Assembly: GCF_000150955.2 (NCBI RefSeq)
Contig: NC_011669.1
Span: 1,494,993-1,558,992 of the forward strand
DNA: 64,000 bases
Direction of reading: 5' to 3'
Source of the DNA: Phaeodactylum tricornutum CCAP 1055/1
Taxonomy: Eukaryota > Bacillariophyta > Bacillariophyceae > Surirellales > Neidiaceae
The position numbers and the translations under genes were made by a program. Every line of letters begins with the position of its first letter. Positions within the stretch are counted from its first letter, which is position 1. The notes beneath the pieces are model-generated. The model was not told where the DNA came from, did no database searches, and saw only the letters and a list, made by a program, of their open reading frames with translations. Below are positions 21,130 to 41,975 of this stretch, piece after piece.

Positions 21130-21202
21130 GCCCGGTTAGCTCAGTCGGTAGAGCGCACGACTCTTAATCGTGTGGTCGTGGGTTCGATCCCCACATCGGG
21201 TG
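21130..21202 (+). tRNA. tRNA-Lys (anticodon CTT)
   Basis: 73 nt, no intron. It folds as a complete cloverleaf: acceptor GCCCGGT with ATCGGGT (two G-U pairs), D stem GCTC/GAGC, anticodon stem CACGA/TCGTG around loop CTCTTAA (anticodon CTT, positions 34-36), T stem GTGGG/CCCAC around TTCGATC, discriminator G. A box TAGCTCAGTCGG and B box GGTTCGATCC are intact. The CCA end is not encoded, as expected in a eukaryote. It decodes AAG. Confidence 0.97.
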
Positions 21203-33861: not shown

Positions 33862-34302
33862 TTATCGAGCGGTCCCCCCGTGTTCTGCGGTAATGGCCCT
33901 TACAGCATCCGCAGTCGTTTGCTGCAAGTTGGATTGCATTTTCTGAATTTTCAGGGCGAGCTCGTTGCCCTCCTTTTCCGTGGCTTGTATCTTGCCTTCG
34001 AGTCCTTTTTTTTCACTGGCGATAAACTCTAGACGTTTCCGTACCGTTTCCTGGGCTTCTTCCAGATTCTGCTTGATCAAAACGGGTCCCACTTGTTTGT
34101 ACACGGCTGAGTCGCTCTGCTGCAGATTAAGCTCTTGTAGAACCATTTCGTTTTCCGTTTCCTGACCCACGACAATCTGCAGATCGGATGCAAGTCTGCC
34201 CATTTTTTCCTGTAAGCCACGAAATTTGTTGATTTCAGTGTCCACCGCAGACGCCAAAACGTTGCCTGGATTGTTCGGATCGGCAGCACTAGCTGTTGCC
34301 AT
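33862..34302 (-). CDS. PFDN6: prefoldin subunit 6
   Basis: 146 aa, ATG at 34302. Prefoldin is the hexameric cytosolic co-chaperone that hands actin and tubulin to CCT. Seen: beta-type prefoldin layout, a long N-terminal helix (INKFRGLQEKMGRLASDLQI), the central hairpin region (ENEMVLQELNLQQSDSAVYK, QVGPVLIKQNLEEAQETVRK) and a C-terminal helix (IQATEKEGNELALKIQKMQS). VYKQVGPVLIKQ is the signature of subunit 6. Length is normal. Convergent with NOC2. Confidence 0.93.
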   Translation of the reverse strand: MATASAADPNNPGNVLASAVDTEINKFRGLQEKMGRLASDLQIVVGQETENEMVLQELNLQQSDSAVYKQVGPVLIKQNLEEAQETVRKRLEFIASEKKGLEGKIQATEKEGNELALKIQKMQSNLQQTTADAVRAITAEHGGTAR

Positions 34303-34682
34303 TGTGGAGAAGTGTCGATTTGAGGGAGTCTACGCTTACAGTTAGTTGCACTCGATCGATGAACTTGGAACAATGTAGCGCAGTGCGAAGAGGATATGTA
34401 AAGCCAGCATGAGCGATCGAGAACGAGACAGACGGTTTCGATTCTGCAATATTTGTACTATCCGACGACACTGGCTCGATATCAAATGGTGTCTGATCTC
34501 ACAGCCACTAGATTCTCAATTTTCATCCGGGCGCTTTCGTTGAGACCATGGTGTCTTTGACTATGAGAGGTACTCACCGCTCCCCACAGCTTATGAATGC
34601 TGACAAAAAAACCAAGTATTACCATCGATGTGGGTGAAAGTATTGCCTTATTTTGACTTCATACTTGTACCTATACTGTAAT
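34303..34682. other. divergent promoter region (prefoldin 6 / EngB)
   Basis: 380 bp between opposed ATGs. No coding frame, repeat or RNA gene recognised. Confidence 0.4.
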
Positions 34683-35933
34683 ATGTTTTCCGTGACAAGA
34701 TTTTTCAGAGGATTTTCCTCGCGAACACAACTTGCTTTTTCCTTTCGTTCCCGGCATTCCATGATCACCCATGCACAAACCACTCGTATCTTCTCTAGCA
34801 GTGTTATAGACGCGAAAGTCAGCAATCGTAGAAGTTTCAAAGAACTCGCGGTCCATCCGAGTATTCACAATTATATCCAACTGATTGGGGTCGGTATCCC
34901 GCCCCGGCGGAGCAAGAAGAAATCTCAAAGGATCGCCATCGAACCTGGTCGATTCCGAGATCGACGAGGAGGAAGAGCGATGAATCCAGAAGCTACCGAA
35001 GACCAAAAACGTGAGCGACATTGGAAACCACCGCCTCCGTTTGGACCCAAAGCCTTTCCCGTTAAAGTCGTTGGGAATGTCGCCACTTTGGACGATCACT
35101 ACCCTGCCAACCACAAGAACATTCCGGAAATTGTCCTCGCGGGCCGTTCCAACGTGGGTAAATCCACCCTGCTCAACGCCTTGCTGTATGGAAACAAGCA
35201 CGCCGATGCCGTTGTGAGGCAGCGTGTGCGCGGAAAGACGCCGGAATCGGTCAAGCAACCCAAGGGCATGAAGGCCACAACCAGCGACAAACCAGGAGAA
35301 ACGCGAGCCATTACATTTTATCAACTAGCGGCTCGTTTGGAGCGAGAAAACGGTGTCTTTTATGATCATGCTCTCCGACTGGTCGATTTACCGGGGTATG
35401 GCTTTGCCTACGCGAAAGAAGAAGCAGCTCGCAGATATCGAGCGCTTATGGCCGACTATCTGTTAAAACGTGGAAACAAGTATCTAAAACGGGTGTTACT
35501 ATTAATTGATGCGAGGCATGGTATGAAGAAAGCTGATGTTGACTTTCTGATGGACTTACAAGAACACAGTCGACACTTGCAAGAAAATAGTCGACTGGAT
35601 GGAAAGAGGAAAAAGAATGCTCAATTGCCTCCGATACAGCTGGTTCTGACTAAATGTGATTTGGTGACCCGGGCGGACTTGGCGCGCCGAGTGGCTCAAG
35701 TACGATCACAGTTGTCGGACTGCTTTATACGAGAACCAAGTCAGCTTCCGGTAATGCTAGTGAGCGCCCGCGCCGGTGTAGGATACAATAACGTCGTGGG
35801 GGACAAAGCTCGTGGTGGAGTACTAGAACTGCAGAAGGAAATAGTCGCTTTGGTGACACCCAAGGCACGTGAAGAGAAAGAGCTCGACAAGCAAAAGCCT
35901 GAACGACGTACTGATCACAGACGGCAACGATAA
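34683..35933 (+). CDS. engB: EngB/YihA-family ribosome-biogenesis GTPase, organellar
   Basis: 416 aa from the first ATG (34683). Family role: GTPase needed for large ribosomal subunit assembly in bacteria and organelles. Seen: an Arg/Phe/Ser-rich leader (MFSVTRFFRGFSSRTQLAFS), mitochondrial-like; G1 GRSNVGKSTLLNALLYGN (about 154); G2 TSDKPGETRAITFYQL; G3 DLPGYGFAYAKEE; G4 TKCDLV; G5 SARAGVG. A basic insert of about 25 residues (VVRQRVRGKTPESVKQPKG) lies between G1 and G2, and another before G4 (SRLDGKRKKN). The tail is charged. Convergent with the HMG-box fusion gene, 43 bp apart. Confidence 0.9.
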   Translation: MFSVTRFFRGFSSRTQLAFSFRSRHSMITHAQTTRIFSSSVIDAKVSNRRSFKELAVHPSIHNYIQLIGVGIPPRRSKKKSQRIAIEPGRFRDRRGGRAMNPEATEDQKRERHWKPPPPFGPKAFPVKVVGNVATLDDHYPANHKNIPEIVLAGRSNVGKSTLLNALLYGNKHADAVVRQRVRGKTPESVKQPKGMKATTSDKPGETRAITFYQLAARLERENGVFYDHALRLVDLPGYGFAYAKEEAARRYRALMADYLLKRGNKYLKRVLLLIDARHGMKKADVDFLMDLQEHSRHLQENSRLDGKRKKNAQLPPIQLVLTKCDLVTRADLARRVAQVRSQLSDCFIREPSQLPVMLVSARAGVGYNNVVGDKARGGVLELQKEIVALVTPKAREEKELDKQKPERRTDHRRQR

Positions 35934-35976: not shown

Positions 35977-38900
35977 CTAGTTTTGCAGTACCGAACGCTT
36001 GGAGCCCGCGCTGTTGACTTGTCGCCGCTTTCGGGGGGAATCCATTCCTAGAAATGAAGGTGAAGCTTCACGTTTGGAACGAGTCGACTGCTTTAGTAAC
36101 GTGTCTGCATCATGCTTCCGCTGACGGCATTTCGGCTCTTTGGCTGGTGCTCGACGTAATGGAAACTTCGGTGCCACTCCCTGAAGCAAGCCGTTGGTTG
36201 ATGGGGCCACAGGAGCTGCTTCAAGAAGGCTCTGGCGAAACTTCCGTAGGCTGGACGGTGATTCGCCCATAAAGGCGGGGGCTGCCTTTCGGCGCGGGCG
36301 GTTACCGGAGACCACGGTAGGTGATTCAAGAGCATCGGTAGGGTTGCCAATGCTCCTTGAACGCCCGTAACCAATTGGAGTTTGCACTACCGAAGCTTCT
36401 CTATCCGACAGGGGACGGTGCGTATCTTCCCTTTGCTCACAACCTTTTCTGGCTACGGACAGATCTGGTTCCGCCGTCGACTTGCTCGGTCCTTCAAGTG
36501 CGCCCAGCACAGACCCCCGCGGTCGCCCCCGCTGGCCCGCGGTGCACTTGATGCGGACCACAACCTTTGCACCCGTCGTGGGCCAGACCGCCACCAGTCG
36601 TTGGGATTGAGATTTGGCACCCAATTTGACGAGCTTACGTTTGCGCTCAACGGCCGAGGGTTTGATAGCGGTGCTGGTTCGCACCGGTACCGGCGCATCC
36701 AGCGAGTTGTAGTCCGAGTCGTACGATATGGATTTCAGCGTGCCGACACTTCGACGGGAAAGGTTCTTCGGTTCCGAACAAGGATCCGAGCCGTCGTCAA
36801 TAATGTCCCATTCCTCCTTATCGGCATCCAGCGTGCGCTTCACAGATTTGCTCTTAATGGGAATACAAAAGCTAGACGAAATATCGACTTCCTTGCCGAG
36901 TGACTCGTCCACCAGCTTGTATTTCGGTCGGCCTTCTACCCGCGGCTTGTCCGATCCAAAGGTCCCGACTTGAATCATGGGAGCCAAGTGGCACCACTTG
37001 AGATCAGGAATAAAGGTCAAGACGTACCAGTAATCGTAGTTGGATCCTTCCGTCATTGCTCCCGCTTTGAGCCGGACAACCTTATTGAAAAGCGAATACT
37101 TGATATCCCGGTCGGAAGGTGTACCTCCCGTCAAAGAGTTCCGTCTTTCGATATCGTCGACAACGGTCGGTTCCGCGATGACCGCAGGCGGGTGTGCTTT
37201 TTCAAAGGACGCCAATTCCTTGTCGTACTGCTCCTTGTCGAGGCGGTACTTGATGCGGGCTTGTTCGGCTACTTTTTCGTACCGCTCCTTGAGACGATCC
37301 GGTACCGCCTTCCAGCGATCGGCCAAGAGTTTGGAGCTTTCTGCCACGGACAATCCTTCTAGTTTGTCTTTCCAAACCACACGTTGTTGATTGGCAAAGA
37401 TCAGGTACGCACTCACCGGTCGCTTGGGTGGTACCGGTTCATCCGGATGAGTGCGCCGACGTTTAGCACTGGGTTTGACGGCGTTCATTTTGCCGTTGGC
37501 TAAAGACACGGATTTGGCGACGGTGGTAGACACGCGTTTGACGGGCGAGGGTGGTAAGAGGAGAGGACTAGCGGAGTAGGGTGAAATGGGAACGGCCAAG
37601 GACTGGAGGAAGGGACGGTGTTTGGAGCCGCGGCGACAATTGAGTTGAAGAGCCATCATGTAACTGGGCTCGCCCTCTTCAAAATCGTCGTCGGGAAACG
37701 CCCAGTGCGCGTACGGCTTCCATGCTTCGTCGACCACGTCTAGGTGCGATACTTTGATGCGGGTGCCGTCCTTGAGACGTGAGTTGCTGAGAAGATCGGG
37801 GAGTCGTATTTGGTTGGCTTGTACCAAGGCCAAACAATCGAGGCCGAATTTGCGAGCGATCGACCGGGGTGTCTCGTTTTCTTTGGCGAGGTACCATTGC
37901 GGTTGGTTGGCGGGGGATGGTGGTGGACAGGATCCGATGTTTTCGTAAACAGGCACGAGGAGGACCGTCCCTTCCAAAAGGCGACTGGAGGGGCTTAGAT
38001 CTGTGTAAACGGTGTGGTTCAAAAAGACCATATCCCAGGCGTCCACTTGGTGCGTCTTGGCAATTTCGCTGACGGTTTCTCCCGCCTTTCGTACGGCGTA
38101 GGTGGTGACTTTGGACGTGACGCGTTCGGGATGCGTGGCGAGGGAATTGTTTTTCTCGGGTGAGTTGGTGGGAACCGGGTCGGCGACGGGTTCCTCATCC
38201 TCACTGGCGTTGCCCACGGTGTGTTGATTGGTGTGATACCTACTGCTGCTGCTGTTATTGGTACCGTCCATGCTGCCACGAAGCTGAGCCTGTCGGTGCA
38301 GCGTGGCTTCGTCCTGCATGACGGCTCCGACGCGCAAAAATCCCATGGATTCGTAAAAGGGGATCGAATTGTCGGTGGCTTGCAGAACCACGTAATCGTA
38401 GTTGCATTTGCCGGTCGCTCGCATACACTCCAATTCTTCAATGACGAGGGAGACTAACGCCTGTAACGAGAAACAAGAAACGATGCGGTCGAAACAGGAG
38501 ACGGGGGTGAGGGAAAATGCTGACATCCAACACACACGACACGGTATATATTGCGTAGACGTGGCTGATCGTGGGGTCCACCGTCACTCGTCGAAGTACT
38601 TACTTTTCCGCATCCCAAAGCTCCCAAGAGGGATATTTCGGCAATTCTTGGCCACACGATTCCTTCATTCCATATATCCCCGCCGTGTACAGAATTCTGC
38701 AACCCCCGTGCCAGCTGATTGTCGCGATCCCAGACCCGTACTCCATCACGCATTTCTCGTTGGCGTTCGTGTCCGTCGTGTTCCCAGGCCGCCGCGTTTT
38801 GGGAATCCCAACGAAAGGTTCGTTGGTAGTTGGTGAAGGTTGTGACGGTGACGAATCCTTGCATTCGTCCCGCTTGATCCCGGATGAGGAATCCCCAGAC

Positions 38901-39212
38901 GGGATCGTCCACGTCCAATCGATCGGCGAGATACTCGAGACTGAGTGGCTTGCTACTGCCACCACTACTGGCAGCAGCAGCAGCGGTGCCATTCAAGGAA
39001 TGACGGCAGGGCGACTGCGGAGTGGCCGCGGGACGTCGGCGGACGGCTTCCTTACACAACAACAACATTTCCGCCATGCAGGTTTGAAAAAACGTCCGGT
39101 CGTTGATACGCTGCAAACTCGCGGTGGATAAGTCACGCGCGGGACGCGACACGTCGCCAAAGTTGTACGCCGGCTGCGGCAACGGCTTTTGCGCAAAACG
39201 AGTCGCGTTCAT
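35977..39212 (-). CDS. GNAT - LysM - LysM - HMG-box fusion protein, two exons
   Basis: Join 39212-38604 and 38460-35977, 1030 aa; the 143-nt intron (GTAAGT to CTCGTTACAG, phase 0) joins two halves of one GNAT fold. Order: GNAT acetyltransferase about 80-253, with the acetyl-CoA loop LGALGCGKALVSLVIEE at the junction, then DYVVLQATDNSIPFYESMGF; LysM 1 about 322-373 (TYAVRKAGETVSEIAKTHQV, LLEGTVLLVP); LysM 2 about 391-441 (WYLAKENETPRSIARKFGLD, LKDGTRIKVS); HMG box about 546-618 (PPKRPVSAYLIFANQQR, LLADRWKAVPDRLKERYEKV); an unrecognised block about 650-745 (YDYWYVLTFIPDLKWCHLAP, TLDADKEEWDI); then basic, disordered sequence with two similar motifs (APAFMGESPSSLRKF, SPSFLGMDSPRKRR). Likely a nuclear protein that binds DNA and acetylates something. 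No signal peptide. Confidence 0.82.
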
Positions 39213-40126: not shown

Positions 40127-41446
40127 CTACCCACGATTCTGTTCATCATCGTCATCATCGTCCACGCTAAAGCGGGCATCTTCCGGGATTACCACCGCCG
40201 CCGTTGCGTCGTCGTTACGCCGGGGATCCACTCCCTCCGCGGGCCACGCGTCTACGGATTGCTGCACCACCACGAATTCTTCGTCGGCATCGGCACACGC
40301 GGCCGTACAACTGTACACGGCCACGTTGCCGAAATCCAACGCGTCTCCCCAGATCGACTCGTGCTGGGGTTGGTCCACCCGCAAAATGGCCAAGACGGAC
40401 GGGAGTAACTGACATTCGTACACCCGTGGTGCGCCACACACACACGCGGGGATCGGTGGCGTACTCAATACCTTCGATGATAATGCCACGGATACGGGAA
40501 TGGACCACAGGGGTACACCACCCAGTGCGTACCGCAACACTTGGCGGGGGGAACGTTGAAGGCGGTCCGTAAACGTCCATAACGCGCGATCTTCGACACT
40601 CAGTCGCTCGTCCGGTTCCGTGGCGGTCCAAGTACTCCCTCCTCCGGTATTCATTGACGGACGCAGAGCGTTGATTATATCAGTGTCGTCTTCTTCCGCC
40701 AAATACCGGGCGAGCATGGCTTGGATTTTGGCGTTGTCGTCCGTTTTGGAAAGACCCACGTCGTCTTCGTCGTCCAACGGAGCAATGGCACCCGGCTCTT
40801 GGACGTGCGACAATTCGAAACAAGAAAATTTCGAGGATGCACACTGCTGTGGTCGAGTCCGCTTCCACGGCTTGGCCGGTTTTCGGGACGATCCTTCCGC
40901 GGCTTCCAGAGCGGCTAACTGAACTTCCAAATCGCCGAGACTATTGTCTTCGGTAACATCGGCGGGAACCGCCCAATCGTCCGCTGCGATGGTATTGGTA
41001 TGTGGAGACGGCGAATCCGTTCTAGACGGTAGCGTCGTCTCTTGTTGCCGGGAAGCTTGGAACTTCTCTCGACAGTAGTCTAGGCGATCCCTGCAAAGAC
41101 GGCGACAGCGAACCACCCCCTGACCGTCTGATATCTTTCCTTCCGTAAACAATTGGTTCCAACAGCTGGCTCGTCGACAGGCAGAGATTTGCAACGTCTT
41201 GGCGACGGGAGTGGAACCGTGTGCCGTTCGATACTGGGGAACGTAGAGCTGTGCCAACAGCTGTAAGGAGTTTTGGCAGCTGGAACAGGTTGCGGTGGTT
41301 CCGTCCAAGGGAAATTGGTTATCGTCATCGCCGCCAATGTAGGATGCCGTCGGATCCTCTTGGACGGGTTTGCGTCCGTACAGGATCGGCTGGTACAAAC
41401 GAACGCGTTCGCCGTTTTCGTTCAAGTCGTCTCCACCAGACCACAT
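40127..41446 (-). CDS. PDCD2L: PDCD2/PDCD2L-family (Tsr4-like) ribosomal protein chaperone
   Basis: 439 aa from the first ATG (41446). Family role: dedicated chaperones of ribosomal protein uS5 (Rps2) during 40S assembly. Seen: N-terminal part YIGGDDDNQFPLDG then a zinc-binding set CSSCQNSLQLLAQLYVPQYR, ISACRRASCWNQLF, VVRCRRLC; a long acidic middle; and the PDCD2 C-terminal domain RQVLRYALGGVPLWSIPVSV, IPACVCGAPRVYECQLLPSV, LDFGNVAVYSCTAACADADE. The order and spacing of Cys pairs fit PDCD2-like proteins. Subtype (PDCD2 or PDCD2L) is not settled. Confidence 0.85.
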   Translation of the reverse strand: MWSGGDDLNENGERVRLYQPILYGRKPVQEDPTASYIGGDDDNQFPLDGTTATCSSCQNSLQLLAQLYVPQYRTAHGSTPVAKTLQISACRRASCWNQLFTEGKISDGQGVVRCRRLCRDRLDYCREKFQASRQQETTLPSRTDSPSPHTNTIAADDWAVPADVTEDNSLGDLEVQLAALEAAEGSSRKPAKPWKRTRPQQCASSKFSCFELSHVQEPGAIAPLDDEDDVGLSKTDDNAKIQAMLARYLAEEDDTDIINALRPSMNTGGGSTWTATEPDERLSVEDRALWTFTDRLQRSPRQVLRYALGGVPLWSIPVSVALSSKVLSTPPIPACVCGAPRVYECQLLPSVLAILRVDQPQHESIWGDALDFGNVAVYSCTAACADADEEFVVVQQSVDAWPAEGVDPRRNDDATAAVVIPEDARFSVDDDDDDEQNRG

Positions 41447-41975
41447 GACTGGTTGCAAAAATCAGGACGATTGATGTGCGCCTGACTTGGATTTGGAAAG
41501 AGGTGGCAGTAGTGGAAGGGAAAGCAAGGCTACCGGAGAGTCGGTTGACCCCAGAAGGGTTGACCGAACAAACGGGGGAACATCGTACAAATTTTCGATG
41601 GCTGGAAATTGACGCAATCCGCCAAGTTTCCGCACCATAAATAAAGAATATTTGCTTACTTTTTCCTAGGTAAATCGGGAAAGCCTAAGGTCGTCACGGA
41701 AAGCGAGACAAGAGCTAAAATATCACACACAGGCTAACTGATAAAAAACAAGTTAGATAGCAAAACGTTGGAGCGCATACCTGTCAAAGTCGTGTAGAGA
41801 CGAATTCCGTACTCACATTATTCTGTAAATGGCTCGTCTCGATCTCCAATATACCGAGCGAGCTGTCCCTGCCATCTAGGATGGTGACAACGCTCTCCGA
41901 GCACATTCGGTTGACTCCGACTTGGTAGGGAGTATTCGATGGATTCCATAAAAACGGACGCAAGCAACGATAACG
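41447..41975. other. divergent promoter region
   Basis: 529 bp between PDCD2 and the next plus-strand gene. No feature recognised beyond promoter-like AT-rich patches near 41640-41760. Confidence 0.4.

Follow-up and report, generated by a model that had tools for sequence, protein, structure and literature searches.

A single spliced gene and its domains

The window analysed here, a 64,000-nucleotide stretch of the genome of the diatom Phaeodactylum tricornutum CCAP 1055/1 (contig NC_011669.1, forward-strand positions 1,494,993 to 1,558,992), contains a gene at 35977-39212 on the minus strand whose product combines a GNAT acetyltransferase fold with two LysM domains and an HMG box. The original prediction of one gene with one intron of 143 nucleotides was borne out. 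Exon 1 (38604..39212, residues 1-203) encodes the conserved N-terminus and the first part of the GNAT domain, and exon 2 (35977..38460) encodes residues 204-1030 and the stop; between them lies a phase 0 GT...AG intron (38461..38603). Splicing yields a protein of 1030 residues, and without it the frame hits a stop at the end of the intron. The exon junction agrees with relatives that are uninterrupted in the alignment.

Pfam recognized the HMG box (E 1.7e-12, 48 bits against a curated cut-off of 25.4) and LysM (PF01476; E 4.6e-7, 30.1 bits against 20.9) in two stretches, while the GNAT match was weak (E 0.023, 15.1 bits, below the cut-off of 23.6). Alignment, together with the fold of the relative P0002, placed the GNAT body, strands beta1-beta6, at residues 32-250 (38320..39119, intron included). 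It contains E192 of the AEI strand (38637..38639), an invariant Glu in the alignments and the candidate general base. LysM 1 (residues 322-373; 37951..38106) and LysM 2 (residues 391-444; 37738..37899) are followed by the GNAT beta7 region PYAHW..EPSYMMALQL (residues 452-477; 37639..37716). Further along come (i) AKRRR (37453..37467), which resembles a nuclear localization signal by pattern only, (ii) the HMG box (PF00505; residues 547-623; 37201..37431), whose best PDB matches are HMGB1 and NHP6A, (iii) a conserved C-terminal block of about 100 residues (659-757; 36799..37095), and (iv) a basic tail (residues 758-1030; 35980..36798), probably disordered, whose counterpart in P0002 mostly has a predicted local distance difference test score (pLDDT) below 50. 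The tail carries an AT-hook core by pattern, QRGRPRG (36514..36534). A hydrophobic N-terminus was not found in the protein, in agreement with the claim that it has no signal peptide.

Thus all of the predicted parts were recovered by Pfam (the GNAT match being below cut-off), alignment and predicted structure, but they do not form a simple row: the LysM pair lies inside the GNAT fold. Alignment with a LysM-less paralogue locates the pair between strands beta6 and beta7, where the paralogue has a short loop. The predicted structure of P0002, which is 54% identical, has a GNAT fold with strands beta1-beta7, and whole GNAT structures match its residues ~30-440 with the LysM pair falling in a gap. 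When the LysM region was searched with Foldseek, the first 14 rows were all LysM proteins. A simple order of GNAT followed by LysM was rejected, as both the alignment with the paralogue and the structural match speak against it, and the architecture with its nested LysM pair is well supported by sequence and structural modelling. Other LysM domains were sought in the genome itself (27.45 Mb, 88 contigs, six frames, exon by exon): the Pfam model gave nothing at E 0.001 and only the two described here at E 10, which is a lower bound.

Tail to tail with this gene, about 44 bases apart, is a GTPase gene (MMR_HSR1; EngB-like by our reading) at 34653-35933 (+). Other neighbours encode a PDCD2_C-domain protein at 40127-41458 (-) and a prefoldin subunit at 33862-34302 (-). 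The sole Rfam match in the window at the gathering score is a tRNA gene at 21130-21202 (+).

Diatom relatives and a LysM-less paralogue

A search of diatom and other stramenopile genomes for the same architecture had been suggested, and the architecture was found in diatoms. A protein search with residues 1-740 gave 207 relatives at E <=0.001 among 7991 scored candidates. The best 120 were listed and are called type I here; because the query included LysM, LysM-bearing proteins were favoured in this list. A minority of entries carry organism names, and all of those named are diatoms, both pennate (Mayamaea, Nitzschia, Seminavis, Pseudo-nitzschia, Cylindrotheca, Epithemia, Amphora) and centric (Skeletonema, Cyclotella). 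The columns of LysM 1, LysM 2 and beta7 were each more than 70% filled in all 120 listed relatives, those of the HMG box in 113, the GNAT body in 107 and the block in 95. By stricter limits 75 of the 120 run from GNAT through the block; many of the other 45 stop inside the block or start inside GNAT, and resemble gene models that are partial or left unspliced. Eleven MMETSP or EukProt entries were checked, nine transcriptome-derived by name and two from genome scaffolds. In all eleven, the columns of GNAT, both LysM domains, beta7, HMG box and block were filled to at least 0.94. Precomputed Pfam annotation gives an HMG box in just five of the nine transcriptome-derived entries. Among 48 of the 49 non-redundant type I representatives (one was omitted for size), Pfam at E 0.01 found LysM in 43 and HMG_box in 34. 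Judged on these sequences, a chance fusion is excluded by relatives that share the arrangement.

Two relatives have additional features in their C-terminal halves. P0076 (1753 residues) has, by eye, two PHD-like fingers (Pfam PHD) and several extra LysM-like repeats, and P0008 (1384 residues) has, also by eye, three copies of an unrecognized repeat of about 60 residues, W...G...K......W...VR..A..L. Viral relatives were not found: one scan (alignment A1) gave 26 pattern matches in viral contigs, none of which was confirmed by tblastn.

No loss of the LysM insert was seen in type I among the relatives listed. The HMG box is less constant. With a family HMG model built from 8 of the 120 relatives, 110 of them gave a match at E 0.001 (E computed for 120 sequences), and eight had no match at 0.1. 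Five of these eight were read by eye. Four (P0048, P0053, P0081 and P0104) keep beta7 and the block with no HMG-like segment between them, so the HMG box is accessory; the fifth, P0063, has what we take for a decayed HMG remnant. RGRP occurs in the stretch read of P0048, P0053 and P0104, and not in that of P0081.

The paralogue (type II; L003:721-3468, G000:C1 near 1466017) lies about 63 kb away in the same genome and has GNAT and the block without LysM and without an HMG box. Its GNAT domain resembles that of type I (44% identity to P0002 residues 39-233), and it has the same beta7 PSYMM motif. A search with the paralogue gave 252 relatives, of which the best 120 were listed; 54 of these, picked for coverage, were aligned with the genome's own protein. 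None of these 55 had LysM or an HMG box when scanned at E 0.01, and the paralogue profile found nothing among PDB sequences at E 1. Conserved motifs in the middle part of the protein (QKQY.S.WLAVPP and KQKVKSYPR) are a further feature of the type II family, and two of the 55 members (alignment A2) match PF08533, a beta-galactosidase C-terminal domain (best E 7.5e-5).

The C-terminal block had been described as an unrecognized segment of about 95 residues. It is conserved and is shared with the LysM-less paralogue: HHalign joins the type I and type II blocks at 99.1% (E 1.4e-18), with 20 column-shuffled controls at or below 3.4%. Against PDB structures the block alone gave no Foldseek match at E 0.001 and weak SH3-like matches by VIA-align. 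We consider it probably an SH3-like barrel (cf. Tudor, KOW and other SH3-like modules).

In an unrooted GNAT tree of 49 rows, 25 type I rows fall on one side of a branch with support 90/91, and 21 type II rows form another branch with support 99/94. P0245 of the bolidophyte Triparma laevis, a type II GNAT without LysM whose 450-residue model lacks the block by eye, adjoins type II together with the similar protein P0249. P0254, a LysM-bearing protein on a long branch, adjoins type I, and its placement is unsure. A profile search for free-standing GNAT proteins (~140-450 residues) gave 22 matches; the three that are named come from Fragilariopsis, Triparma and Seminavis, and there was no bacterial name among them, in a search that reached only proteins sharing exact words. 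The tree fits a duplication before the diatom/bolidophyte split, and is compatible both with a gain of LysM in type I and with its loss in the other branch. Overall, sequence and modelled structure support our protein as a type I member of a two-branch GNAT acetyltransferase family in diatoms. Homologues lacking a part had been named as a ground for rejecting the combination. Such homologues exist, since the HMG box is missing from some type I proteins and both LysM and the HMG box from the paralogue family, and they show how the protein was assembled rather than refuting the combination.

Possible function and rival explanations

The original prediction proposed a chromatin-bound acetyltransferase with LysM reused as a binding module. 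This is still the reading we favour, with the HMG box now as an accessory that some relatives lack. A protein acetyltransferase that is associated with chromatin and DNA, and in which the LysM insert serves substrate recognition, is the best explanation of the whole, and we give it about an even chance. The protein is likely to reside in the nucleus and to transfer acetyl groups. Both branches have GNAT and the C-terminal block in common, to which type I adds the LysM pair between beta6 and beta7 and, in most members, the HMG box. The HMG box, AT-hooks and basic tail would keep the nuclear protein on DNA or chromatin, and the block, probably an SH3-like barrel, may dock on a protein of chromatin or transcription. 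The GNAT domain would move acetyl from acetyl-coenzyme A (acetyl-CoA) to a lysine in a protein associated with chromatin, the invariant AEI Glu serving as base. The LysM pair, which would lie at the edge of the substrate side, may recognize or gate the substrate, which could be a protein or a glycosylated protein.

There are several other possibilities. The protein could be an acetyltransferase-derived nuclear scaffold, whose GNAT domain binds acetyl-CoA or nothing and acts as a base that carries LysM, the HMG box and the block. The subthreshold Pfam score would fit this, as would the acetyl-CoA loop. In GNAT proteins the loop is Q/R-x-x-G-x-G/A, which is not invariant across the superfamily, and here the Q/R position is Gly in every row examined (117/117 type I, 55/55 type II). 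Against a scaffold, the AEI-strand glutamate at the E192 position, whose role as general base we presume by analogy with GCN5, is Glu in 117/117 type I and 55/55 type II rows; of the G-x-G glycines, the first is kept in 117/117 and 50/55 and the second in 117/117 and 55/55. In addition, 85 of 203 positions of the GNAT body reach at least 90% identity, compared with 3 of the 73 HMG-box positions. We regard a scaffold as unlikely. Mean frequencies of the commonest residue are 0.73 for the GNAT body, 0.69 for the block, 0.68 for LysM 2, 0.60 for LysM 1 and 0.43 for the HMG box, and Acetyltransf_10 was found at E 0.01 in 30 of the 48 type I representatives and 41 of the 55 type II members.

An N-terminal or other protein acetyltransferase that does not act on chromatin is somewhat less probable again, as the HMG box, the AT-hooks and the PHD-bearing relative favour chromatin. 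Quite doubtful is a sugar-directed enzyme, in which LysM would bind N-acetylglucosamine (GlcNAc) chains or proteins carrying O-linked GlcNAc (O-GlcNAc) and GNAT would acetylate an amino sugar or a residue nearby: the protein has no hydrophobic N-terminus, and its AT-hooks and HMG box suggest a nuclear location. According to PMC5485960, LysM is also present in architectures of intracellular type such as plant F-box/LysM proteins, so extracellular glycan binding is not implied. A more specific form of the chromatin acetyltransferase reading makes the LysM pair a sugar-reading gate, which would bind O-GlcNAc, or some other amino-sugar mark, carried by nuclear proteins and place the GNAT site nearby for glycan-dependent acetylation on diatom chromatin; we see this as a long shot. 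Finally, a gene-model artefact merging two adjacent genes is rejected as next to impossible on the spliced model and the relatives, nine of them transcriptome-derived and covering the whole architecture in a single open reading frame, and on the position of the LysM insert within one fold.

LysM, a type of domain best known as a binder of extracellular wall glycans, is here inserted in the enzyme fold of a protein that has nuclear features. As this genome also encodes the LysM-less paralogue, there is a natural control that makes a role of LysM inside the cell testable in a transformable alga, and an ecologically important group gains an uncharacterized candidate for a chromatin acetyltransferase.

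Comparison with known systems

No description of this protein was apparent among the papers listed from the open-licence literature, and LysM is not mentioned in the accessible part of PMC4222949. Profile similarity to GCN5 was not significant: HHalign gave 0.5% against one GCN5 encoded in this genome, a value inside the range of 30 shuffled controls, in a single-template comparison of low power. The sequence link to GCN5 was dropped on this result. The protein also differs from GCN5/PCAF in having no bromodomain match (Pfam), and to our knowledge neither a LysM insert nor an HMG box occurs in GCN5. Its HMG box resembles HMGB/NHP6, from which it differs in being a single box in a large enzyme-like protein and in being diverged or absent in some relatives.

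The OXR1/NCOA7 group, in which NCOA7 itself presumably carries LysM, and the plant F-box/LysM proteins are alike in having LysM in intracellular proteins; none of them is known to be an acetyltransferase or to have its LysM inserted in an enzyme fold. PMC5614904 presents NCOA7 as a coregulator of nuclear receptors, and PMC5485960 describes LysM in intracellular-type architectures such as the plant F-box/LysM proteins. The tandem LysM proteins (plant CHIP13 and LYR4, fungal Ecp6, bacterial NlpC/P60) gave the best Foldseek rows and have a similar LysM fold. These proteins are extracellular or wall-directed. Unlike in them, the LysM pair of the diatom protein is nested in an enzyme fold and accompanied by nuclear features.
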